Shown in pieces: positions 42,954 through 54,705 of a DNA stretch of 64,000 nt. The translations under genes were made by a program, and so were the position numbers. The stretch covers positions 124,001 through 188,000 of the forward strand of contig NZ_PIQJ01000001.1 in assembly GCF_004214835.1 (NCBI RefSeq), written 5' to 3'. Numbering within the stretch: the first letter of the stretch is position 1; every line of letters begins with the position of its first letter. This DNA is from Pseudidiomarina tainanensis. Lineage in GTDB: Bacteria; Pseudomonadota; Gammaproteobacteria; Enterobacterales; Alteromonadaceae. Under the pieces are notes generated by a model. That model had not been told where the DNA came from and searched no databases. It saw nothing but the letters and a program-made list of their open reading frames with translations.

Positions 42954-43973
42954 TTGACCATCCGGGATATTTTAACGGCAATCATACTACTGCTCATTAC
43001 GGTGCTCGCTAACAGCTTCATTTGGCTAAACGGCGCGGCAACGAACCCTTATGCCGTGTTGATTCTGGTCCCGATGGCGGCAGCCATGTTGCTCTTACCA
43101 TTTCGTTTAGCATGGTTGGTCATTGTTGTGGGTGTCGCAGGGCAACTGATGCAGCTACAGGCGCCACTACCCACTAATCATCAGATGGATACCCACTATA
43201 GGGCAATGGTGTATGGTCAAATTTTCGCTGGCTTGCTCCTTGGGGTGACCTTACATATCTTGCGTGTGCGCATTGTGCGTCAGCAACAAGCCTTACGAGC
43301 CTTGCATCAGCGCCAACATCGCGACGAACAATTGGTAACTATTGGTACCGCTGCGGCGCAATTCAGTCATGAGGTTGCCACGCCCATCCAGACCATACAG
43401 TTTATGCTTGAAGATGTGCGGCAACGCTATCCAAACGATGAAGACTTGCAGCGAGCAGAGCAGCAAATTAAGCGTATTCACAACTTGCTATTAGATTGGC
43501 GGCAAGTGGCCGAAGATGTTCGGACTCACCGTGTACTTGAGCTGCAAGTAAACGAACTCGTTGAGCAGGTTCGCGATGCATTGCTGATTGCCCGTCCCGA
43601 TATTCGTGTGCATTGGCATGACGATGAACAGCCTGGCTGTGTTATTCAAGCAGATCGAACATTAATCCCAGCCATTTTAAGCTTGTTGCACAACGCTGCC
43701 GATGCAGCGCCGCTCGATTCGAAAATCGACGTTAAAACGCAAGTTGTTGAGAACACTTGGCAGATGATTATTCGTAATGAGGGCGAGCCACTTGATGCTC
43801 CTCGAAAGCGTGGGTTAGGGCGAGAGCTGCTGCCAAGTAGCCGTGGTGTTGGCGCTGGCGCGATGCTGAGTTATGCAACCTTTGAGCGGTTCGGCGGTAC
43901 TGTAAGTTGGCATGTTGAGTCGGGGCACACCGTGACTGAGATTTGTATGCCAGTGGAGGCTCGTCATGGCTGA
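42954..43973 (+). CDS. RegB/PrrB-like redox sensor histidine kinase
   Basis: 339-residue membrane kinase starting at TTG (42954), supported by GAAGGAG 9 nt upstream. About four membrane helices occupy residues 5-105; the loop GAATNPY resembles the quinone-binding GGxxNPF of RegB. The H-box is FSHEVATPIQTI with H139, very close to the RegB/PrrB H-box HELATP. The N-box is HNAADAA. The ATP-binding part is unusual: where a D-x-G-x-G motif is expected it reads RNEGEPLDAP. Its stop overlaps the start of the response regulator by 8 bp. Confidence 0.83.
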   Translation: MTIRDILTAIILLLITVLANSFIWLNGAATNPYAVLILVPMAAAMLLLPFRLAWLVIVVGVAGQLMQLQAPLPTNHQMDTHYRAMVYGQIFAGLLLGVTLHILRVRIVRQQQALRALHQRQHRDEQLVTIGTAAAQFSHEVATPIQTIQFMLEDVRQRYPNDEDLQRAEQQIKRIHNLLLDWRQVAEDVRTHRVLELQVNELVEQVRDALLIARPDIRVHWHDDEQPGCVIQADRTLIPAILSLLHNAADAAPLDSKIDVKTQVVENTWQMIIRNEGEPLDAPRKRGLGRELLPSSRGVGAGAMLSYATFERFGGTVSWHVESGHTVTEICMPVEARHG

Positions 43974-44493
43974 CACCGTGCTGATTATTGATGATGACAT
44001 TAACCTGCTGCAGGCGCTGAGTAGTCGGCTGGAACGTGCGGGCTATCAAGTGGTGACAGCAGCGACGAAAGCCGAGCTCGATATGCAGCCTTGTGCGCAA
44101 GTCGATCATATTCTTTTAGATTTAAAGTTCGGTGAAACGAACGGTTTAGAGCTAATCAAACCATTGAAAATGCGGTTTAATCCTAAGAATCTAGTGATTT
44201 TAACTGGCTATGCGAGCATTGCCACATCAGTAGCAGCGATTAAGGCTGGAGCGACCGATTATCTTGCCAAGCCAATACAAACGCAGGTTTTACTGCAAAC
44301 CCTGGCAACAGACGAGGAATTGCCGCCTGAGTTGAGTGACCAGCCACTGACCCCAGCCCAATTAGAGTGGGAACACATTCAACGTGTTATGCAAGAACAC
44401 CAAGGTAATATTTCTGCCACCGCAAGGGCGCTCGGTATGCACCGCCGCACTTTGCAACGCAAATTAAGCAAGCATTCACCCCTAAAGCAGTGA
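43966..44493 (+). CDS. RegA/PrrA/ActR-like response regulator
   Basis: 175-residue two-domain regulator. The receiver (about 1-115) has acidic residues DDD at 10-12, phospho-acceptor D52 (LLDLK), the TGYAS Thr and AKPI Lys. A short linker leads to a Fis-type helix-turn-helix with ATARALGMHRRTLQRKL, nearly identical to the RegA DNA-binding motif. In proteobacteria the pair controls respiration, carbon and nitrogen fixation genes according to redox state. Here the likely targets are neighbouring redox genes and its own operon. Confidence 0.9.
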   Translation: MADTVLIIDDDINLLQALSSRLERAGYQVVTAATKAELDMQPCAQVDHILLDLKFGETNGLELIKPLKMRFNPKNLVILTGYASIATSVAAIKAGATDYLAKPIQTQVLLQTLATDEELPPELSDQPLTPAQLEWEHIQRVMQEHQGNISATARALGMHRRTLQRKLSKHSPLKQ

Positions 44494-45046: not shown

Positions 45047-45084
45047 TATCTGAACCAAACGGGTTTAACCCGCGCAAAAAGTAG

Positions 45085-45100
45085 TTTAGTATTTACTAAA
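45085..45100. promoter_or_regulatory. Inverted repeat TTTAGTA-TT-TACTAAA (candidate operator)
   Basis: Perfect 7-bp palindrome arms, 29 bp before the start of the first metallo-beta-lactamase gene. Closely similar palindromes occur at 53806-53821, 52853-52869 and 47821-47837, upstream of functionally related genes. This suggests binding by a shared homodimeric repressor. An ArsR-family persulfide sensor (BigR/SqrR type) is a reasonable guess; no such gene is in the window. Confidence 0.55.
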
Positions 45101-45129
45101 TTAATCAATTTTCTTGATGAGGTTGAGTG

Positions 45130-45996
45130 ATGTCAGCAGTACAAGTGAAAGCATTTTTGGACGATGACAGCGAAACGTTTAGCTATGTGGTTTACCGTGA
45201 GGATGAACGAAAAGCCGTTGTTATTGATCCGGTCTTAGATTTTGACTACAAGTCGGGTCGTACGAGCACACGCGGCGCTCAACGCTTAGTTGATTTTGTC
45301 AAAGCTGAAAAATTGCAAGTAGAATGGGTGTTGGAAACGCATGCGCATGCCGATCACTTATCTGCAGCTCCGTTTGTGAAAGAGCAGGTTGGTGGTCAAA
45401 TTGGCATTGGCGAGCACATCAAAGATGTGCAGAAAATTTTCAAAGATGTGTTTAACCTCGAAAAAGAATTCCTACCGAATGGTCATCAGTTTGATCATCT
45501 ATTCAAGGATGGTGAAACGTTTAAAGTCGGCTCGATGACGTTTCGTGTCATGCATACTCCAGGGCATACCCCAGCAGATTTGTGTTACATCGTCGATGAA
45601 GAGAAAATTTTTGTGGGCGATACGTTATTTATGCCTGATGTTGGTACCGCGCGTTGCGATTTCCCTGGCGGAAGCGCAAGCACACTGTATCAATCGATTC
45701 AGAAAATTTTGGCATTACCTGAAACAACGGAAATTTATATTTGCCATGATTATCCGACACAAGGGCGCGAGCATGAGTTTAAGACTACCGTGGCGCAGCA
45801 ACGTCAACACAGCAAGCACGTTCACGATGGCGTGACGGAAGCTGAATTTGTGAAAATGCGTGAGGAACGCGATGCGACCTTAGAGATGCCGCGGCTGATT
45901 TTGCCGTCAATTCAGGTTAATATTCGGGCGGGACACATGCCGCCAGCAGACGCAGACGGCAAAGTGTATTTAAAATTGCCGATTGACCAACTCTAA
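45130..45996 (+). CDS. Persulfide dioxygenase-like metallo-beta-lactamase protein (ETHE1/BLH type)
   Basis: 288-residue MBL-fold hydrolase. Metal motif THAHADH, further ligands in MHTPGHT and VGDTLFMPDVGTARCDFPGG, then CHDYP; the last two are characteristic of ETHE1/Blh persulfide dioxygenases, which oxidise glutathione persulfide to sulfite with one Fe(II). There is no fused rhodanese domain. The ATG at 45130 follows GAGG by 7 nt and is preferred over GTG 45127. Its neighbour YeiH (32 bp downstream) is probably in the same operon. Confidence 0.88.
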   Translation: MSAVQVKAFLDDDSETFSYVVYREDERKAVVIDPVLDFDYKSGRTSTRGAQRLVDFVKAEKLQVEWVLETHAHADHLSAAPFVKEQVGGQIGIGEHIKDVQKIFKDVFNLEKEFLPNGHQFDHLFKDGETFKVGSMTFRVMHTPGHTPADLCYIVDEEKIFVGDTLFMPDVGTARCDFPGGSASTLYQSIQKILALPETTEIYICHDYPTQGREHEFKTTVAQQRQHSKHVHDGVTEAEFVKMREERDATLEMPRLILPSIQVNIRAGHMPPADADGKVYLKLPIDQL

Positions 45997-46028
45997 GCAA
46001 GCGTCAATCTCCACCGCAAAGGTGAGTT

Positions 46029-46970
46029 GTGACTCATATTAAACCGGCATTGTTTTGGCTTGTCGGCATTCTAACGTTGACGCCTTGGATCAGTGCGCCG
46101 GTTGCTTTAATTCTCGGCGCGCTGATGGCCCACTTCAGTGCCATTCCGCCGTATATTCAACCAAGTATATTGGTGAAAAAGCTACTCGCAATTGCGATTG
46201 TGGCGTTGGGCTTTGGTGTGCAACTCAATGTGGCTTGGCAGGTGACCAGTGATTATTTTGCATTGATGGTCACTAGCATTGTGGTGACTTTGCTGTTGGC
46301 GCTGGGGCTCGGTCGACTATTTAAAATGGACACCACCACGAGTCACCTGTTGGGTTCAGGCACGGCCATTTGTGGTGGTAGTGCGATTGCGACAGTGGCC
46401 CCAGCCATTCATGCCAGAAACGATCAAATGGCTCTAGCGCTGGCCAGTGTATTTACTCTCAACGCTGTTGCCTTGTTAGTTTTCCCAATCATTGGCACCG
46501 CTTTGGGTCTCAACGAACAAACATTTGGTGTGTGGGCGGCCATTGCCATTCATGATACCAGTTCGGTGGTCGGCGCGGCACAAGCATACGGCGACCACGC
46601 ATTACAAGTGGCGACAACGTTAAAACTGGCGCGAGCTCTTTGGATCATTCCATTGGCACTCATTTCGGCGCTTGTCTACCAGCGCATGACGAAAACCGAA
46701 GGACAACGCAACATCACTGTTCCGTGGTTTATTCCAGGCTATATCGCCGCCATGTTGTTTGCGTCATCGCTGCCGCAATTCGATACTCTATACGCTGCTA
46801 CGTTTAGCGTTGGTAAGCAGTTACTGGTTTTCTGTTTGTATTTGGTGGGGGCGAGCATTACCGTCGAACGGCTTAAAGCAGCTGGCTGGCGTCCGCTGCT
46901 TTTGGCCGTTGTGTTATGGTTAGTTATTGCGACGCTATCGTTAGTGTGGCTTACAGTACTGACTGGCTGA
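46029..46970 (+). CDS. yeiH: YeiH/UPF0324 family putative sulfate exporter
   Basis: 313-residue inner-membrane protein with about ten helices. Signatures: LAIAIVALGFGVQLN, GSGTAICGGSAIATVAPAI and AIHDTSSVVGAA. The family (PSE, putative sulfate exporter) frequently accompanies cysteine, taurine or persulfide metabolism. Exporting sulfite or sulfate from the upstream enzyme would fit, as inference. Start is GTG with AAAGGTGA upstream. Its 3' end overlaps the convergent TauE/SafE gene by 20 bp. Confidence 0.87.
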   Translation: MTHIKPALFWLVGILTLTPWISAPVALILGALMAHFSAIPPYIQPSILVKKLLAIAIVALGFGVQLNVAWQVTSDYFALMVTSIVVTLLLALGLGRLFKMDTTTSHLLGSGTAICGGSAIATVAPAIHARNDQMALALASVFTLNAVALLVFPIIGTALGLNEQTFGVWAAIAIHDTSSVVGAAQAYGDHALQVATTLKLARALWIIPLALISALVYQRMTKTEGQRNITVPWFIPGYIAAMLFASSLPQFDTLYAATFSVGKQLLVFCLYLVGASITVERLKAAGWRPLLLAVVLWLVIATLSLVWLTVLTG

Positions 46971-47700
46971 GTACAAAAATAGCCATTAAAATCAGAAACA
47001 CAGCAAATGCCTTTTGCAGTTTCTGTCGCGGTAAACGAGCGCCAATCCACGCACCCGCATAGCTTCCGACAATGCCGGCGATGGAAATAATCGCAATAAT
47101 GACCCAATCGAATTCATAGCCTTGTGCACTAAGAGCCGCATAGTATTTGGCAAAGCCAACAAAGGATTTCAGCGCGATAATCATCAAACTGGTACCAATA
47201 GCGAGAATCATCGGTACGCCACCTAACAGTACCAACGCGGGCACAATTAAAAAGCCGCCGCCAACACCAACAAATCCGGTTATTGCTCCCACCACGAGAC
47301 CGTCAATAATCACGCGAACAACTTTCACATCATTTGGTGTATCGGTCGTGCTGCGACCGCGCCACATCATCACCGAGGCAATAGCCATCAGCACAACGAA
47401 TACTAAGAGCTGAATGCGGCTATCAACCGCCGCACCGCCCCATGCGCCAGCGTAGGCACCAATCATGCCCGGTATACCGAACAACCAAACGTGTGGCCAT
47501 GAGACGATCTTCTTGCGAGCACTTAATAACCCGCCAAACAAACTGATGAATGCAACAATCAACAAAGACGATGCAATGGCGAGATTGGCAGGCATGTTCA
47601 CAAGATAGAGTAAGACAGGAACCGTAAGGATCGAGCCACCCGATCCAAAAATGCCGAGGCTTAAGCCGATTAGTATCGCGCCAATAATCGCTTGAATCAT
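46951..47700 (-). CDS. TauE/SafE family sulfite/organosulfur permease-like protein
   Basis: 249-residue membrane protein with about eight helices in two repeats. Seen: GIFGSGGSILTVPVLLYL and the second-repeat VGVGGGFLIVPALVLLGGV, typical TauE/SafE signatures. The family exports sulfite, sulfoacetate or related anions. TauE/SafE genes accompany persulfide dioxygenase genes in bigR-type operons, in line with the flanking MBL genes here. It is transcribed away from the second MBL gene, sharing a 150-bp control region. Confidence 0.87.
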   Translation of the reverse strand: MIQAIIGAILIGLSLGIFGSGGSILTVPVLLYLVNMPANLAIASSLLIVAFISLFGGLLSARKKIVSWPHVWLFGIPGMIGAYAGAWGGAAVDSRIQLLVFVVLMAIASVMMWRGRSTTDTPNDVKVVRVIIDGLVVGAITGFVGVGGGFLIVPALVLLGGVPMILAIGTSLMIIALKSFVGFAKYYAALSAQGYEFDWVIIAIISIAGIVGSYAGAWIGARLPRQKLQKAFAVFLILMAIFVLSQSVL

Positions 47701-47820
47701 GAAGCCTTCTCCTACTTGTTATGTCGACTATGAGACACTAAAAACAACAATCTTTCAATCGAGTGAGCCGATTACGAAAATCGACCATTGCAACTTGCGA
47801 AATATCATCATAGCACTTAC

Positions 47821-47837
47821 TTTAGGGATATACGAAA
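47821..47837. promoter_or_regulatory. Candidate operator TTTAG-N7-CGAAA before the second MBL gene
   Basis: TTTAGGGATATACGAAA is the same length and mostly identical to the 52853-52869 palindrome (TTTAGTATAATACGAAA), though its own symmetry is weaker in the centre. It lies 13 bp before the start codon. A further half-site ACTAAA is at 47737-47742 on the TauE side. Confidence 0.4.
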
Positions 47838-47850
47838 TAAGGAGGGTGTT

Positions 47851-48747
47851 ATGAAAAACATGATCCGTTTTAGCCCATCAACTGGCTCTAACTCACCAGA
47901 TGTCTGGGGTGTTTATGAAGCCGACACTGGTTCAATTCAATATGTTGTTGCTGATCCAGCAACGCGCAAAGCTGCTTTAATCGATGTGGTACAGAATTTT
48001 GATCCGCGCTCAGCGCGAACCGACTTTTCAAGCGCAAATCAGGTGCTTGAGTTAGTGAATGAAAACAATCTCGAAGTGCAATGGGTACTGGACACACATC
48101 CGCATGCTGACCATATGATGGCATCGTACTACTTGAAAGAGAAAACTGGCGCACCGAATGCCATCGGCGAAAAAGTTAACGAAATTGCGAAGCTTTGGAG
48201 CGACTACTATAACTTACCTAACCAATTTTCACCCCGTGATGACTTTGATTATCTCCTCAATGAAGGAGACACATTCAAAATCGGTGAACTCGATGTGCAA
48301 GTTTGGCTATCTCCGGGACACACTTTAGGCTCAATTACTTATATTGTTGGTGACGCAGCGTTTGTGCATGACACGTTCATGTATCCAGATAGCGGTACCT
48401 CGCGAGCAGATTTTCCTGGAGGCACGTCCAAAGATCTGTGGGCAACCTTGCAACGAATTTTGTCGTTACCAGAGAACACGCGCTTATTTGTCGGGCATGA
48501 CTATGGCAAAGATGGTCGTGAGCCACAATGGGAAGCCACAGTCAAACAGCATAAGTTAGAAAATATTCATCTTGCAGGGAATGTAACCGAAGCGCAGTAT
48601 CGTGAACAACGTGATGCGCGGGATGCCACGTTGGCTTTGCCAGACCGCATGTTACACGCGCTGCAAGTGAACTTACGCGCCGGTAAACTGCCTAAGCCAG
48701 AGGCTGACGGTGCATCGTACTTTAAAATACCAGCGAATAAGTTTTGA
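47851..48747 (+). CDS. Second persulfide dioxygenase-like metallo-beta-lactamase protein
   Basis: 298-residue paralogue of the protein at 45130. Metal site THPHADHM, then LSPGHT, VHDTFMYPDSGTSRADFPGG and VGHDYG; both end in a similar tail (QVNLRAGKLPKPEADG here, QVNIRAGHMPPADADG there). The ATG at 47851 with GGAGG 5 nt upstream is clearly the start. It is followed after 30 bp by a peroxiredoxin. Having two diverged copies within 3 kb suggests different persulfide substrates or expression conditions. Confidence 0.88.
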   Translation: MKNMIRFSPSTGSNSPDVWGVYEADTGSIQYVVADPATRKAALIDVVQNFDPRSARTDFSSANQVLELVNENNLEVQWVLDTHPHADHMMASYYLKEKTGAPNAIGEKVNEIAKLWSDYYNLPNQFSPRDDFDYLLNEGDTFKIGELDVQVWLSPGHTLGSITYIVGDAAFVHDTFMYPDSGTSRADFPGGTSKDLWATLQRILSLPENTRLFVGHDYGKDGREPQWEATVKQHKLENIHLAGNVTEAQYREQRDARDATLALPDRMLHALQVNLRAGKLPKPEADGASYFKIPANKF

Positions 48748-48777
48748 TTGGTACTTAACAGAATAGAGGAAATGAAA

Positions 48778-49410
48778 ATGGGATTACGTATTGGCGATAT
48801 CGCACCTAATTTTAAAATTGAAACCACCAAAGGTGAAATTGATTTTCATGAGTGGTCAAAAGGTTCTTGGGTATTCTTTTTTAGTCATCCTGCCGACTAT
48901 ACGCCGGTGTGTACCACAGAAATGGGACGTACATCGCAACTTGCAGGTGAGTTTGAGAAGCGTGGTGTGAAACCTTTGGGTCTTTCAACGGATACCGTTG
49001 AAGAACACTTAGGTTGGATTAACGACGTAAATGAAACACAAAACACCAACCTGCAGTTTCCAATTGTCGCAGACAAAGACAAGAAAGTAGCCGCGCTGTA
49101 TGAAATGATTCATCCAGGCGAAAGTGAGACCGCGGCGGTGCGTTCGGTGTTTATCATTGATCCGAACCACAAAATTCGTCTAACCATGACCTACCCAATG
49201 AGCGTTGGTCGTAACTTCACCGAGATTCTACGTGTGATTGACGCATTGCAAACCGGCGACCAATTCGGCGTGGCGTGTCCGGCTGATTGGCAAGTGGGCG
49301 GTGATGTGATCATTCCACCTAGCGTATCGATGGAAGACGCAAAGAAAAAATTCCCACAAGGTTTTAAAACCGTGAAGCCTTATTTGCGTTACACTAGCGT
49401 AAACAAATAA
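48778..49410 (+). CDS. Peroxiredoxin, 1-Cys Prx6-like
   Basis: 210-residue AhpC/TSA-fold peroxidase. The active-site motif PADYTPVCTTEMG carries the peroxidatic Cys45 with P38/T42 in canonical spacing. The long C-terminal domain (about 165-210, DWQVGGDVIIPP) is typical of the Prx6 group. A second cysteine, in FGVACPADW, could act as resolving Cys. The ATG at 48778 is chosen because GAGGA lies 7 nt upstream; an ATG 6 bp earlier has only 1 nt spacing. It is probably cotranscribed with the MBL gene. Confidence 0.92.
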   Translation: MGLRIGDIAPNFKIETTKGEIDFHEWSKGSWVFFFSHPADYTPVCTTEMGRTSQLAGEFEKRGVKPLGLSTDTVEEHLGWINDVNETQNTNLQFPIVADKDKKVAALYEMIHPGESETAAVRSVFIIDPNHKIRLTMTYPMSVGRNFTEILRVIDALQTGDQFGVACPADWQVGGDVIIPPSVSMEDAKKKFPQGFKTVKPYLRYTSVNK

Positions 49411-49424
49411 CCTTCAATTGATGA

Positions 49425-50027
49425 ATGATTGCGACCGCCTACTCAACAAATTTTGATACGTTACTCCCCGCGCTTGAGGCATGGGTAACTGAAGCTGAGC
49501 GCGAGGCGGCGCAAGCTTATCGACAAGAGCCACGTCAACAGCAATTTCTTGCTGGGCGTGGCTTATTACGTTGGCTTGTCTGCACTACTTGGCATTGTGC
49601 TGCCGGCGCTGTATCGATAACCCGCCAAGAAAACGGTGCGCCGTTACTCTCTGTTGGGGGGCAAACATGGCAGTGCTCGATTAGTCATACCAAGGGTGCC
49701 GTTTTAGTTGCCGCAAGCCCTGAATATGTGGTTGGTGTTGATGTTGAACGCATTAAACCTCGCAAGCGTTTAGCTGAACTTGTCGCGAATTACCAAGATG
49801 GTTTTTTTGCCGATTTGTCTGCTGAGCATTGGCAACGATTTTTTGAACGGTGGACTCTTGCTGAGGCGGTGACAAAGGCTGAGCAGGGGCTGCTGTTACA
49901 AATACTCAAACGACCAGTTGCGAACTACCAAACTGATGCGACACATGAACACCACGATGATTTTATGTTGTGTTGTTACACGCCGAAATTTACCGACTCA
50001 GTCACTTTTCAACGCTTTCCCAGCTAA
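49425..50027 (+). CDS. Sfp-type 4'-phosphopantetheinyl transferase
   Basis: 200-residue enzyme transferring phosphopantetheine from CoA to carrier proteins. Magnesium-binding residues are in VVGVDVERI and the second motif is WTLAEAVTKAEQG (W-x-x-x-E-A-x-x-K). The CoA-binding SISHTKGAV is also present. It is a single-copy-like Sfp/HetI form, and no NRPS or PKS genes are in the window, so its carrier protein is elsewhere. It starts 14 bp after the peroxiredoxin stop, as the last gene of that operon. Confidence 0.88.
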   Translation: MIATAYSTNFDTLLPALEAWVTEAEREAAQAYRQEPRQQQFLAGRGLLRWLVCTTWHCAAGAVSITRQENGAPLLSVGGQTWQCSISHTKGAVLVAASPEYVVGVDVERIKPRKRLAELVANYQDGFFADLSAEHWQRFFERWTLAEAVTKAEQGLLLQILKRPVANYQTDATHEHHDDFMLCCYTPKFTDSVTFQRFPS

Positions 50028-50088
50028 GCCTTCAATGGTAATCTTGCTTTCATAATCCTTTATACGATCTACCATTAACGAGAGCGCC

Positions 50089-50769
50089 ATGACTCCAGAA
50101 CAAGCAAAGCAATTGGTTGAAATGCAAATTGCATTTAACCAAGTCATCGATCCGTCTTATCCGGAAAATCCGCAAGTAAAACGCGACGACGTGAAAGCAA
50201 TATTGGTCGAACTCGGCGAGTATTTTGAGCATACAGCGTACAAATGGTGGAAGAAGCAATCAGCCGATTGGGCGCAAGCCAATATGGAGCTCATCGATAT
50301 CCTGCATTTCGCCATATCTGATGCGGTCGAAAATGCCTGTGCGCGAGGCTTGAATCATGAACAGGCGGCAGAAGAAGTTGCTGCACTGGTTCTTCAAGGC
50401 GCCACTGGCGGGGCAACCATTAACGATGGTAAAGAAATCGTCGTCGCCCTTGCGAAAGATGGCGATGCGACCAAAGCGTTACAGTGCGGAAGTGCTTTTT
50501 TCGCGACGTTATTTGCCGCGCTCATTGATGCTTATGGTGATGCGAACACAGTTTACCTGACCTATATTGGTAAAAATGCCCTGAATAACTTACGTCAACA
50601 ACGCGGATATAAGCAGGGTACTTACATTAAAATGTGGCAAGGTCGTGAAGATAACGAAGTGATGATGGAGTTGCTTGAGGCGCACGAAGAAGCAATTATT
50701 AATGCGCCTCAACCATTACAACAAGCTCAGCAGTTGCTTCTTAGTCACTATGACGAGCAAGTCGCTTAA
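50089..50769 (+). CDS. Dimeric all-alpha dUTPase-like NTP pyrophosphatase
   Basis: 226-residue helical protein of the MazG/dUTPase-2 superfamily. The metal motif is split as ELGEYFEH and MELIDILHF (E-x-x-E ... E-x-x-D), with the Trp-rich YKWWKKQ between them. The second half (GYKQGTYIKMWQGREDNEVMMELLE) matches dimeric dUTPases of phages and kinetoplastids rather than the trimeric Dut. It probably hydrolyses dUTP to dUMP. The start follows a 61-bp gap. The stop overlaps the convergent lipoprotein gene by 4 bp. Confidence 0.85.
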   Translation: MTPEQAKQLVEMQIAFNQVIDPSYPENPQVKRDDVKAILVELGEYFEHTAYKWWKKQSADWAQANMELIDILHFAISDAVENACARGLNHEQAAEEVAALVLQGATGGATINDGKEIVVALAKDGDATKALQCGSAFFATLFAALIDAYGDANTVYLTYIGKNALNNLRQQRGYKQGTYIKMWQGREDNEVMMELLEAHEEAIINAPQPLQQAQQLLLSHYDEQVA

Positions 50770-51683
50770 GATGCTTTAACGAAGCGCAGCAACGTTTCAT
50801 TGTTGTTGCGCAATTGCAACGTGTTGCCATTGTCACCCACTTCGAAACCGGTCACTTGATCAAGCGCTTCAAATAGCGCTTGCTCGGCTGACATCTGTTC
50901 CTGAGAGCACATCATTTTCGTAGCGGCTAACGGATTAAAGCTGAGCCCCTCACCACTTAATTGAAAGTTACCTTGAAAACGATTGCAGCCACTGTAACCA
51001 AATACCGAATTGTCACTCATAAACTGAATGGTCGGCGGCTTATCGAGCTCACTAGCGTGTAACTGCCACGATGCCCCCGAAAGGAGTCGTTGTGGCTCAC
51101 CCGCACAGCCACTGAACGATGTATCATCACGGGTTAATTTTGCTGTGTATGGATAAGGCATGCCGGACATGGAGTCGCGACAGATAGCGTCTGAAATTTG
51201 CAGTACTTCGTCAGTACGTAGTTTTATTTCCCAAGTATTTCGAGAGGTATCGTTCAGTCGAGACGTTTCTATTTTCGGGTAATCACGATCCCCAGTAGGC
51301 TGACGTAGCGATGCGCTACCATTATTGACGTGCACAAGCCAGAAGGGCTCGTTGCCGCGCGCACTAAATTGTTGCGGAAGGCTTGCTTTGTCGATACACA
51401 GCGGATAAGGCTGCCCAGCGATGGTTAACTGTGCTTGTGAGCCTTTATTCCAAAACTCAAGCTCTTGTTGTTGGTTAACGTATAGCGCGCCAGATGCACT
51501 CGTTTTGGCATCGAGCGCAACACGTTGATCGCCAAACCGAAGTTCGACGTTTTGATTTGAAAAGGTTGCTTCTACGTCAAGTGCACCGCAACCGTACTCA
51601 ACTGTGGTCGATTGCGGTGCGTTATCACAACCTGTTAAAACAATGATGCTACCAAGCGCTGATAATGCATAAATCAAACGCAT
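50766..51683 (-). CDS. MliC-META domain lipoprotein
   Basis: 305-residue lipoprotein (lipobox LTGC, Cys at residue 19). Three regions are visible. A MliC-like C-type lysozyme inhibitor domain covers about 28-100 (YGCG..., EFWNKGSQAQL). A COG3650-like middle covers about 105-200 (FSARGNEPFWLVHV). A META/HslJ domain at the C terminus covers about 200-300 (SVFGYSGCNRFQGNF, with AATKMMCS). The ATG at 51683 has AAGGA 7 nt upstream. Likely envelope protection against host or predator lysozyme and heat or novobiocin-type stress, by family analogy. Confidence 0.83.
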   Translation of the reverse strand: MRLIYALSALGSIIVLTGCDNAPQSTTVEYGCGALDVEATFSNQNVELRFGDQRVALDAKTSASGALYVNQQQELEFWNKGSQAQLTIAGQPYPLCIDKASLPQQFSARGNEPFWLVHVNNGSASLRQPTGDRDYPKIETSRLNDTSRNTWEIKLRTDEVLQISDAICRDSMSGMPYPYTAKLTRDDTSFSGCAGEPQRLLSGASWQLHASELDKPPTIQFMSDNSVFGYSGCNRFQGNFQLSGEGLSFNPLAATKMMCSQEQMSAEQALFEALDQVTGFEVGDNGNTLQLRNNNETLLRFVKAS

Positions 51684-51827
51684 CTTAGAATCCTTCACCT
51701 AACTGACGCCCATGTTATCTGTTATGACCGTGTTTCAAGTGAATGATTCCATTTTTTAATAATCGCTATTCTGCTTATGGCATGTTCATTAAAGTCACAA
51801 GACCAAAAATTATTAAATTCAAAAATT

Positions 51828-52829
51828 TTACTGGAACGGGTTCGGCCGCGGTGTATTCTCGCCAGAAGGTGGCAACAGGGGCAATGATATTTTTGGGCGC
51901 TCACCTGTGAGAGATTCCATAAATGCAACTAAATTTGCCAATTCATCTTTGGTAAAATTGCGACCTAATTGAAGTTGCCCCATAATTTGAGTTGCTTCTT
52001 CCAGAGTGTTTGCGGCGCCATCGTGAAAGTATGGGTAAGTGATAGCAACATTCCTTAAAGTCGGCACTTTAAACATAAAGCGATCTATTTCTTTGCCGGT
52101 CACGTCATAACGACCTTGCGAGGGGGAATCTGACTCATAAGGTTGTACTAATCCCATTTTCATAAATGATTTACCGCCTAGAGCTTCGCCATAGTGGCAT
52201 GCAACACATCCCGCTTGTTTGAATAGCTGGTAACCCGCAAGTTGCTGCTCAGTAATGGCGTTATCGTCACCTTGGAGCCATCGATCAAATGGTGCATTTG
52301 GCGTAACTAGCGTCTTTTCAAATTCAGCTATGGCATCTGTAATATGATCAAGCGTCACTTGGTTTGTACCATAGACAGCCTCCACTTGTGAGCGATAGCC
52401 GGGAATCGACTGAATAACATCAACGGCTAGCGTATGCGGCATCGCCATTTCAACATTTGCAGCAATTGGCCCTGCAGCTTGCTCTTTCAAATCTAATGCA
52501 CGCCCATCCCAAAACTGCGCGATTTGTAGGCTGGAGTTAAAAACTGTTGGGGAGTTGACCGGGCCGGCTTGCCACTTGTGACCAATCGAGGTCTTTAAAT
52601 TATCTGTTCCACTATATGAAAGATTATGACAAGTATTGCAAGAAATAATGCCAGACATGGATAAACGTGGGTCAAAAAATAGTTGTTTACCCAACTCGAC
52701 TTTTTCTGGTGACTCACTTACATATGGTTCAATCACCTTAATCGGTTCATTTCGAACCTCTGCTTGCGCATGCGTTGCGGTTAAACAAATAGTAGAAAAA
52801 ACTATTACAGATGCTGTTAAGGCTTTCAT
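51828..52829 (-). CDS. Di-heme cytochrome c peroxidase (CcpA/MauG family)
   Basis: 333-residue periplasmic enzyme reducing H2O2 with electrons from small cytochromes. Signal peptide cleaved after AQA (residue 23). Two heme sites: C64-N-T-C67-H68 (peroxidatic) and C208-V-A-C211-H212 (electron transferring). Conserved LGKQLFFDPRLS and KVPTLRNVAITYPYFHDG are typical. The promoter region carries a candidate operator (52853-52869). Fits the peroxide-defence theme of the neighbourhood. Confidence 0.93.
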   Translation of the reverse strand: MKALTASVIVFSTICLTATHAQAEVRNEPIKVIEPYVSESPEKVELGKQLFFDPRLSMSGIISCNTCHNLSYSGTDNLKTSIGHKWQAGPVNSPTVFNSSLQIAQFWDGRALDLKEQAAGPIAANVEMAMPHTLAVDVIQSIPGYRSQVEAVYGTNQVTLDHITDAIAEFEKTLVTPNAPFDRWLQGDDNAITEQQLAGYQLFKQAGCVACHYGEALGGKSFMKMGLVQPYESDSPSQGRYDVTGKEIDRFMFKVPTLRNVAITYPYFHDGAANTLEEATQIMGQLQLGRNFTKDELANLVAFMESLTGERPKISLPLLPPSGENTPRPNPFQ

Positions 52830-52852
52830 CAGGAATCTCCGTGTTGTTTTAT

Positions 52853-52869
52853 TTTAGTATAATACGAAA
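52853..52869. promoter_or_regulatory. Near-perfect palindrome TTTAGTAT-A-ATACGAAA before the peroxidase gene
   Basis: Seven of eight base pairs are symmetric around one central A. It starts 24 bp upstream of the cytochrome c peroxidase start codon and overlaps the only -10-like sequences there (TATTAT/TATACT on the minus strand). It is a relative of the TTTAGT-N4-ACTAAA sites. Confidence 0.5.
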
Positions 52870-52912
52870 TATAAAAATTACATGGAGATTAATCAAATTT
52901 TCATCAATTAAT

Positions 52913-53692
52913 TTACTGATTTTCCCATGAGAACGAATTCTCAAATTGGGGTAATTGAGCTGTGTTACCAGTGCGTAATGCGTCACCCACTGCCTTCGCT
53001 ACGGCATTGCGATATTTTGCGAGTTCAATCCACACTTCTGTGAATTTTTTTGACGCAGGCTGTCCACTTTCTTTGTAAGCTTTTAATAACTCTCCAGCTA
53101 CAATATAACCAGCATTGATGCGCTGTGCATGAAGCGTTTCGTATATTTCAATTTCTTTCTTTACTTCAAGTGACAAAGAGAGTTGTTCGGTTTTAGGATA
53201 CTTCTGTTGCAGGAAGTAGCTATGGAAATCTTCTTGTGATTTTGAACGCGCATTCATCCATTCGTAAAAGTCGATGCGATTTGTAATAGTGCTACTGCTG
53301 GGTTCTACTATTAATACCGTGGGCGTTCCATAATAGGTTGGTAGTCCAAAGAAGCGAGCAATATCATAACCGCTCTCTAGGTAACCCACGTTTACTGTCA
53401 CTACTTCGTAGTGCTGGCTAATTTGCTCATAGAAATCAGGTTGCGAGAATTGATCAGCGATTACTTTGCTATCACTGCACCACGTAGCACCAAGAATCAC
53501 CAGCAAATACTTATTTTCTTCGACAGCTTTTCTTTGGGCTATTTTTATATACTGTAAGTCAGAAGCTTGTTCTTCAAATTGAAACATCGGGAGAATTGTT
53601 GTTGATTCCGTGGGGGCAGTCGCAAAACTCACCGGGGTATAAAGATAAAAAGCAAAGGATAAACAGGCTGCTAATAAGACTAAAAAACGCAT
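52913..53692 (-). CDS. Thioredoxin-like periplasmic protein with single active-site Cys
   Basis: 259-residue secreted protein (signal peptide about 1-24). The thioredoxin-like domain (about 45-160) has ILGATWCSDSKVI, so the CxxC is reduced to CxxS. The rest is helical with no domain I recognise. It lies 83 bp upstream of the peroxidase gene on the same strand, so the two may be cotranscribed. Role unknown; a monothiol site suggests thiol binding or isomerase-type rather than classical disulfide reductase activity. Confidence 0.75.
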   Translation of the reverse strand: MRFLVLLAACLSFAFYLYTPVSFATAPTESTTILPMFQFEEQASDLQYIKIAQRKAVEENKYLLVILGATWCSDSKVIADQFSQPDFYEQISQHYEVVTVNVGYLESGYDIARFFGLPTYYGTPTVLIVEPSSSTITNRIDFYEWMNARSKSQEDFHSYFLQQKYPKTEQLSLSLEVKKEIEIYETLHAQRINAGYIVAGELLKAYKESGQPASKKFTEVWIELAKYRNAVAKAVGDALRTGNTAQLPQFENSFSWENQ

Positions 53693-53805
53693 TTTTGTAT
53701 TCCCAGTAGTGAAAGTACCTTGTTTAATTAGCTTGATTCTGCCATTTCTGGTACAGGGTTGCTATTCACATTTTCTTTCATTTGAGCGATCTATTGACTA
53801 CTTTC

Positions 53806-53821
53806 TTTAGTAATAACTAAA
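53806..53821. promoter_or_regulatory. Inverted repeat TTTAGT-AATA-ACTAAA (candidate operator)
   Basis: Perfect 6-bp arms, 16 bp before the DUF2892 start and just downstream of a TTGACT -35-like sequence (53794-53799). Same half-sites and length as the 45085-45100 repeat; only the central four bases differ (AATA against ATTT). Confidence 0.55.
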
Positions 53822-53837
53822 AAACATCGGAGGCTTT

Positions 53838-54020
53838 ATGGTCAACGTCGGAACACCGGATCGGATTATTCGAATTATCATTGGAATTGCACTGATTGCA
53901 TGGAGCGTTTCTGCGGGAAATCTGTGGTGGATTCTTGGTGCAGTCGTACTTGCAACGGGTATCTTTCGTTTTTGTGGATTGTACAAAGTATTGGGTATCA
54001 ATACCTGTTCAGTAAAATAA
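53838..54020 (+). CDS. DUF2892 inner-membrane protein (YgaP C-terminal-like)
   Basis: 60-residue protein with two membrane helices and the signature GTPDRIIRIIIGIALI, ending in IFRFCGLYKVLGINTC, the DUF2892 pattern. The same module is the membrane anchor of YgaP sulfurtransferase and often accompanies rhodanese or persulfide dioxygenase genes. CGGAGG precedes the ATG. The cupin gene follows after 25 bp, so they form a unit under the candidate operator. Confidence 0.88.
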   Translation: MVNVGTPDRIIRIIIGIALIAWSVSAGNLWWILGAVVLATGIFRFCGLYKVLGINTCSVK

Positions 54021-54045: not shown

Positions 54046-54705
54046 ATGTTTAATATGGATTTCTCACAACGTGTTGTGATTCGAAGCGCTGAGCTTGATT
54101 GGGTCAAAAGCCCAGCTGGAGGTGTATTGCGCAAGCCACTTGAACGCGAAGAAGCAGAACGTGGCCGCGCAACCAGTATTGTAAAGTATGAGCCCGGCGC
54201 TTCCTTTCAAACCCATCAACATCCGTTGGGCGAAGAGATTTTTGTACTCGATGGCGTCTTTTCCGATGAGCATGGCGACTACCCAGCCGGTACCTATATT
54301 CGCAACCCACCGGGCTCATCGCATGCCCCATTTAGTGAGCAAGGTTGTACATTATTCGTCAAGCTCCACCAATTTTCTGATACTGACCGTAATGTGGTGC
54401 GTATTGATACCAAAAATACGCCTTGGCTACCTGGTCAGGGAAATTTAGAGGTGATGCCACTACATAGTCATGAAACTGAACATTGCGCGTTGGTGAAATG
54501 GCCAGCCGGCGAAGTATTCAAACCACATCGGCATTTCGGCGGCGAGGAAATCTTGGTGCTAAGCGGCGAGTTTATTGATGAGAACGGGCGCTACCCAACT
54601 GGAACATGGATACGCAGTCCACACCTAAGTATGCATACGCCATTCGTTGAGCAGGAAACAATCATCTACGTAAAAACCGGTCACTTACCGTTATCACCAA
54701 CCTAA
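54046..54705 (+). CDS. Double-cupin protein (ChrR-like cupin domains)
   Basis: 219-residue protein made of two homologous cupin domains (about 15-105 and 120-215). Each has the metal motif: HQHPLGEEIFVLDGVF with GTYIRNPPGSSHAPF, and HRHFGGEEILVLSGEF with GTWIRSPHLSMHTPF. This ChrR-type cupin occurs in anti-sigma factors and in stand-alone proteins near redox genes; there is no zinc anti-sigma domain here. Function unknown. It overlaps the convergent lyase gene by 12 bp. Confidence 0.84.
   Translation: MFNMDFSQRVVIRSAELDWVKSPAGGVLRKPLEREEAERGRATSIVKYEPGASFQTHQHPLGEEIFVLDGVFSDEHGDYPAGTYIRNPPGSSHAPFSEQGCTLFVKLHQFSDTDRNVVRIDTKNTPWLPGQGNLEVMPLHSHETEHCALVKWPAGEVFKPHRHFGGEEILVLSGEFIDENGRYPTGTWIRSPHLSMHTPFVEQETIIYVKTGHLPLSPT

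Follow-up and report, generated by a model that had tools for sequence, protein, structure and literature searches.

The closest described relatives of the regulatory system considered here are ArsR-family proteins, among them YgaV of Escherichia coli, SqrR of Rhodobacter capsulatus and BigR of Xylella and Acinetobacter (cited papers are drawn on in part throughout). YgaV represses the ygaV operon; the transcription start lies 28 bp 5' of the start codon, with a footprint nearby, and the authors likened the footprint area to ATTC-N8-GAAT, the site deduced for SqrR (PMC9774250). SqrR is a persulfide sensor (PMC10509353), and BigR is a repressor of persulfide dioxygenase genes (PMC5823870; PMC7315123). 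Operator letters for BigR do not appear in the parts of PMC5823870 and PMC7315123 drawn on, nor do any operator letters in those of PMC9995734 and PMC12423496, and the main text of a regulon reconstruction (PMC5343134) does not contain the words BigR, YgaV, SqrR or HlyU. Here we analyzed a 64,000-nucleotide stretch of Pseudidiomarina tainanensis DNA (G000:C1:124001-188000, hereafter the window), part of a genome of 2.37 Mb in five contigs that was also scanned, in which four related palindromes precede genes of a sulfur/peroxide block. With a probability of roughly 87%, these palindromes are the operators of one BigR/SqrR/YgaV-like ArsR repressor, whose repression would be relieved by persulfide.

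The first-pass annotation had reported the four palindromes with letters and coordinates that we confirmed, and each indeed lies 5' of the gene it had named: PDO1, PDO2-Prx, a di-heme peroxidase gene (CCP) and DUF2892-cupin (Table 1). It had also described them as related forms of two separate lengths; the relatedness stands, whereas the 16-bp and 17-bp forms proved to be one 22-bp operator. This operator follows the frame TAnTT(TAG/CGn)nnn-nnn(CTA/nCG)AAnTA, which is scored out of 14 and in which TTTAG and TTTCGn are the two spellings open to each half at a constant length. A scan of the window with this frame returned 14/14 at 45082, 47818 and 52850 only and nothing at 13, and 60 shuffles of the window contained no 14/14 match. 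With up to two mismatches, TTTAGTANNNACTAAA gave five strand-matches in the window against 1.57 expected, a count of at least five being reached in 3 of 100 shuffles. The letters of the 45082 operator are identical in the genome of Pseudidiomarina marina (L011). By reading, the SqrR string ATTC-N8-GAAT is missing from all four window sites, and identity with the SqrR operator was rejected.

Upstream regions of 150 bp were scanned across the genus Pseudidiomarina at orthologues located by protein searches blind to the motif, except for an RND efflux adaptor set and two Prx loci, which had been found by the N7 pattern. From loci to upstream regions kept, the numbers went from 26 to 22 for ArsR, 39 to 25 for PDO1, 19 to 9 for Prx, 17 to 5 for DUF2892-cupin, 16 to 15 for cupin, 19 to 15 for a gene like sulfide quinone reductase (SQR) and 11 to 9 for the RND adaptor, while all 11 PDO2 and all 7 CCP regions were kept. 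Rows were dropped for no match, low identity, a query start above 12, fewer than 100 bases or exact duplication, and weaker relatives (L105-L108 for ArsR, L146-L151 for CCP) were left out. Two of the 15 SQR rows (L238, L239) are gene fragments, and in three of the 15 cupin rows a DUF2892 gene intervenes. Because pattern-found rows would make the test circular, the RND adaptor set and one Prx row (L209) were removed to give a set of 108 upstream regions and kept in one of 118.

In the 108 upstream regions, searched at spacers N3-N11, half-site spelling and spacer are coupled. TTTAG..CTAAA has a spacer of N6 in 24 regions and N11 in one, whereas TTTAG..CGAAA (33 regions) and TTTCG..CTAAA (8 regions) occur exclusively with N7, and TTTCG..CGAAA exclusively with N8, in a single region. 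The coupling arises because the outer TA keeps a constant distance from the centre under either spelling: measured from TAnTTTAG to AAnTA, 70 distinct sites span 22 bp, and every other length from 17 to 28 bp is represented by at most three. The constant TA distance and the 22-bp length therefore make the 16-bp (N6) and 17-bp (N7) palindromes one operator, and a variable spacer was rejected, since the spelling is tied to the spacer and the outer letters hold a single frame. Counted by strand, the 98 opposite halves were CGn in 51 cases, TAG in 36, AAG in 8, CAG in 2 and CAA in 1.

Strict sites occurred in 69 of the 118 upstream regions, where shuffles averaged 0.17 and never exceeded 2, and in 59 of the 108 regions free of pattern-found rows. 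A score of 13 or more was reached in 21 of 22 upstream regions of the ArsR-DUF2892 operon (in the exception, G160, the gene seemingly lies inside an operon without its own promoter), in 15/15 for SQR, 10/11 for PDO2 and 5/7 for CCP. For DUF2892-cupin, one of five regions reached 13 and all five reached 12; the window site at 53806 is thus credible, on sequence grounds, through its conservation and not through its own score. Conservation at orthologues, which the first-pass annotation had named as a check, is accordingly strong for ArsR, SQR and PDO2, but patchy for PDO1, Prx and cupin.

The appearance of two spacings, N6 and N7, with two window promoters for each form, would also fit two regulators, an ArsR protein for TTTAG/TTTAG and another dimeric repressor for TTTAG/TTTCG. 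We consider this quite improbable, as the 22-bp outer frame is identical in both forms, the TAG and CG spellings interchange at the same position between species upstream of SQR and ArsR, and the sole TTTCG/TTTCG site has the N8 spacer predicted by a single frame; both forms also occur upstream of ArsR in other genera. We lean instead, with some reservation, towards one ArsR repressor that reads a rigid 22-bp operator with halves TTTAG or TTTCGn, the use of CG being perhaps tied to its recognition helix, S[AP]SAFSQHL.

Stretches from other genera were not used in deriving the frame and provide an independent test of it. Thirteen stretches upstream of ArsR in six other genera (116,212 bases; 13 of 15 genomes, leaving out G023 and G067, with the same-genus L294 unscanned) contained 18 sites at 14/14 and 14 sites at 13/14. 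Sixty shuffles of the same stretches gave means of 0.0 and 0.05, respectively, with no 14/14 site in any of them. Among frame lengths of 17 to 28 bp, 22 bp accounted for 47 strand-hits and 26 bp for 4, with none at the remaining ten. In a control of 37,003 bases (L070-L072), which is not clean because its loci were originally chosen for motif matches, two sites scored 12, one scored 13 and none 14. In one locus of the other genera (L282), the order read from translations is ArsR, DUF2892, an outer-membrane protein, a LolA-like protein, an RND-type permease, two operators 51 bp apart, a rhodanese, a TauE-like protein, a 13/14 operator and a dioxygenase. Paired operators at a distance of 50-51 bp, close to five turns of the helix, were also observed in L100-L102 and, for sites scoring 12 or more, in 10 of the 13 loci L281-L293.

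The candidate regulator was sought in the P. tainanensis genome with PF01022 as the sole model, which gave two matches: one reads as a response regulator and the other is a 115-aa ArsR protein whose own operon promoter carries the palindrome. This protein scores 52.8 bits against a cut-off of 22, and the best 8 of its 27 matches among solved structures include HlyU (4k2e and 3jth), YgaV (3cuo), BigR (3pqj) and 6o8k-6o8o, with NolR and the activator 5znx ranking in the same group. The entries 6o8k-6o8o carry the label 'ArsR family' from R. capsulatus, and we take them to be SqrR. ArsR is present in 25 of 26 genus genomes, and Cys44 and Cys110 are found in all 51 aligned loci (26 from the genus and the best 25 of other genera, from a family search that matched 132 of 147 genomes). 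One cysteine lies in the ILC of helix 2 and the other near the C-terminus; the cysteine peptides of YgaV are ILC31ML and KNVYC98P (PMC9774250). By the sites in the sequence, operators stand both in the promoter of ArsR itself and at sulfide-oxidation genes. Judged by its sequence, the protein is a member of the HlyU/SqrR/YgaV/BigR group, and the proposal of the first-pass annotation, a single dimeric repressor of the BigR/SqrR class, draws support from the frame, its conservation, the operator of ArsR itself and the cysteine pair.

Among the closest systems is ygaVP of E. coli, which likewise has a two-cysteine ArsR protein, a partner with a YgaP membrane domain and a self-regulated promoter (PMC9774250). 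The ygaV promoter of E. coli K-12 contains TAATTTAGAAAATACTTAAATA (13/14) and TAGTTTAGAGTTTACTTAATTT (12/14), which begin 25 and 41 bp ahead of the start codon. YgaV differs in that both of its sites are TAG/TAG, its helix reads SASATSQHL, and it is reported to control anaerobic respiratory genes (PMC9774250). The system differs from that of BigR in that the match of PDO1 and PDO2 to Blh is confined to its dioxygenase half and this ArsR falls below the BigR equivalog cut-off. HlyU of Vibrio cholerae and NolR of rhizobia belong, by sequence, to the same ArsR branch. The hlyO operator of HlyU scores 12/14 in the 22-bp frame, and the NolR motif, (A/T)TTAG-N9-A(T/A), falls in the same register by our own alignment; NolR has no cysteines, and the motif of RexT is ATTCG-N15-CGAAT (PMC8960804). 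With NolR and RexT, both kinds of half-site are on record in the wider family, each in a different protein; no CG spelling is reported for HlyU or NolR in the parts of the sources drawn on.

The recognition helix may bear on this difference. In the genus it reads S[AP]SAFSQHL, while the readable distant homologues (L271-L280) have SQSALSQHL or SQSSLSQHL. Sites scoring 13 or more near the SQSALSQHL homologues (L271-L273) are TAG-type only, as are those of L271-L280 as a whole and both YgaV sites. At a score of 12, L271-L280 have TAG-type sites plus three CG-type matches, in L275 and L277 (SQSSLSQHL), which is near chance level. The CG spelling may be linked to the S[AP]SAFSQHL helix, a thin link drawn from few loci.

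The gene set is also compatible with regulators of peroxide or nitrosative stress. A regulator of another family (for example of the Rrf2, PerR/Fur, MarR or CsoR type) could then bind the sites with ArsR as a bystander, and our regulator search covered ArsR. Such a regulator is nonetheless very improbable: the operator stands in the promoter of the ArsR operon in 21 of 22 genus upstream regions, the frame recurs in the promoter of E. coli ygaV and in the operator of HlyU (12/14 for the latter), and the published NolR motif lies in the same register.

On the ArsR interpretation, a dimer bound to the 22-bp site over or beside the -10 element would block RNA polymerase. In eight of nine scored PDO2 upstream regions, a TTG-type -35 element is followed after 17 bp by a TA-TTT -10 element that runs into the operator (in L110 the best pair lies elsewhere), and many ArsR upstream regions have TATATT or TATCAT immediately before the operator. 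With the -10 element beside the operator, a bound dimer would cover both it and the start site. As persulfide rises, a sulfur bridge between Cys44 and Cys110 would form and ArsR would leave the DNA, releasing the SQR-like gene, both dioxygenases, the peroxiredoxin, the peroxidase, DUF2892-cupin, the RND efflux adaptor and the ArsR operon. We infer release by persulfide because of the cysteine pair and of work on SqrR, BigR, HlyU and YgaV (PMC9774250, PMC10509353).

Several results weigh against this interpretation. The window sites were themselves among the genus data behind the frame, and related species are not independent. The 53806 palindrome lacks some of the outer TA letters, and four other window positions share its score. 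PDO1 reached 13 in 8 of 25 upstream regions and 12 in 13 of 25, leaving 12 of 25 below 12; six siteless PDO1 genes (L013-L016, L024, L027) were read as lying close behind another gene and may for that reason be without their own promoter. Prx reached 13 in 3/9 with 6/9 below 12, and cupin reached 13 in 3/15 and 12 in 4/15 with 11/15 below 12. Outside the genus, a site of 12 or more preceded PDO1 in 9 of 36 regions of 300 bases (11 and 25 loci, some from the same genome), even with looser scoring that allowed A or T at one position. A first look within about 1.5 kb of ArsR in other genera found such a site in 1 of 15 loci (L256-L270); the DUF2892-ArsR pair there mostly reads as lying close behind the end of another gene, so the stretch farther upstream was examined, and sites lie there. 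Pointing the other way, G159, the sole genus genome without ArsR, has no site of 12 or more upstream of PDO1 or cupin, a test of one genome and two upstream regions in which cupin sites are patchy anyway; its four N7 matches are without the full outer letters, N6 being outside this search. A -35/-10 pair beside the operator was not found, or lay elsewhere, in many SQR, cupin and other upstream regions, and one RND adaptor operator lacks two outer letters. Against the BigR equivalog NF040642, ArsR scored 65.4 bits with a cut-off of 155; it is therefore not filed as BigR itself, and that label was rejected. Finally, the whole-genome count of the short motif, suggested in the first-pass annotation, gave no enrichment over reversed patterns: WTTAG-N6-CTAAW has 12 sites against 25, and TTTAG-N7-CGAAA 12 against 20.

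Counting alone would thus oppose the finding, and the outer TA letters, which were not part of the strict N6/N7 search patterns, are needed. Among the 24 strict sites, 11 lie in or probably in coding open reading frames (ORFs) and 13 outside: four in the window, two in the gap between DUF2892-ArsR and cdd (C3), one at the SQR-like gene (C5:78506), two at the RND adaptor and four without an evident sulfur gene nearby (L004, L008, L077, L184). All four outer TA letters are present in 8 of the 24, every one noncoding (0 of the 11 coding sites): two in the gap between the ArsR operon and cdd, and one each at PDO1, PDO2, the peroxidase, the SQR-like gene, the RND adaptor and a gap with no clear sulfur gene. 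The clustering on sulfur genes and an ArsR gene that had been anticipated is therefore seen for sites with the full outer letters, and the single regulon that had been proposed is supported at the level of sequence, its predicted membership reaching beyond the window block. That the palindromes are merely AT-rich -10 elements or chance inverted repeats is hardly conceivable: some do overlap -10 hexamers and raw counts are unenriched, but 22 bp of conserved letters in one frame, with spelling tied to spacing, recur in six other genera too.

The genes of the block are listed in Table 1, and their names in the first-pass annotation agree with our family scans. PDO1 matches NF040641 (Blh) over residues 141-423 of 423 with 372 bits, the full-length cut-off being 625, and the protein is 100% identical to its counterpart in P. 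marina PIM1. The SQR-like protein has a match to Pyr_redox_2, and sulfide quinone reductase is its best NCBIfam model; the name is tentative because the score, 74.8 of 525 bits, is far under the cut-off.

Table 1. Operators and genes of the sulfur/peroxide block in the window, and the candidate regulator gene elsewhere in the genome
Feature	Position	Strand	Remarks
PDO1 operator, TAG/TAG, TAGTTTAGTATTTACTAAATTA	45082..45103	.	Frame score 14/14; contains palindrome TTTAGTATTTACTAAA, 45085-45100
PDO1, metallo-beta-lactamase (MBL) fold, like dioxygenase half of Blh (persulfide dioxygenase)	45127..45996	+	Pfam Lactamase_B; NF040641
YeiH-type transporter, next after PDO1	46029..46970	+	PF03601; TIGR00698 114 bits, under cut-off 232.6
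TauE/SafE sulfite-exporter family protein, divergent to PDO2	46951..47700	-	PF01925
Promoter-like pair 5' of PDO2: TTGCGA, 17 bp, TACTTT	47795..47823	+	-10 continues into operator
PDO2-Prx operator, TAG/CG, TACTTTAGGGATATACGAAATA	47818..47839	.	14/14; contains TTTAGGGATATACGAAA, 47821-47837
PDO2, second MBL-fold protein, like Blh dioxygenase half	47851..48747	+	NF040641 424 bits, under full-length cut-off 625
Peroxiredoxin (Prx), 1-Cys type	48778..49410	+	PF00578, PF10417
Di-heme cytochrome c peroxidase/MauG family protein (CCP)	51828..52829	-	PF03150
Peroxidase (CCP) operator, TAG/CG, TATTTTAGTATAATACGAAATA	52850..52871	.	14/14; contains TTTAGTATAATACGAAA, 52853-52869
DUF2892-cupin operator, TAG/TAG, TTCTTTAGTAATAACTAAAAAA	53803..53824	.	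12/14; contains TTTAGTAATAACTAAA, 53806-53821
YgaP-like transmembrane protein (DUF2892)	53838..54020	+	PF11127
Two-cupin protein, ChrR cupin-like	54046..54705	+	PF12973
ArsR, 115 aa, behind YgaP-like DUF2892 gene	G000:C3:6635-6979		Palindrome in operon promoter

Further observations concern the surroundings and other candidate sites. At 42954-44493 of the window, directly upstream of a Tll0287-like protein and PDO1, lie a sensor kinase-like ORF, identified by reading, and a family-scanned response regulator with a Fis-type helix-turn-helix. In P. marina (L011), the nearest named species, no PDO2 orthologue was found, the best match (41%) being PDO1 itself; its peroxiredoxin is present, with no operator of 12 or more upstream. 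The RND efflux periplasmic adaptor gene has two operators 62 bp apart (C5:209751 and 209813; L192, L193, L253). A 14/14 operator at G000:C1:371202-371218 (L184 1501-1517, L299), between a PAS-type sensor-like ORF and an NMT1-like substrate-binding protein gene, marks a possible further regulon member, to judge by its letters. At G000:C5:311811-311826 (L008), flanked by a Vgb-lyase-like and a LysE-family gene, ATTAGTAATTACTAAA is a clean-looking palindrome with just one of the four outer TA letters. A common N7 match occurs in three close species (L197 in G150, L300 in G131, and G164:C6:81510); in G150 it lies 5' of a lipoprotein with a BLH_phosphatase-like domain, and L197 and L300 each deviate at one outer TA letter out of four.

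In summary, the two-spelling operator is the new element, while the regulon is otherwise ordinary in kind; among titles and the beginnings of abstracts, with subscription papers outside coverage, we found no two-form operator and no Idiomarina sulfide regulon. An apparent 1-bp difference in spacer can conceal a fixed frame with two half-site spellings, and such an operator could be divided into two motifs by a search that relies on one matrix or one spacer. One protein and a handful of DNA probes would serve to check the two-spelling idea. A searchable operator for this widespread class of sulfide/persulfide repressors would make target genes readable from sequence in other bacteria.

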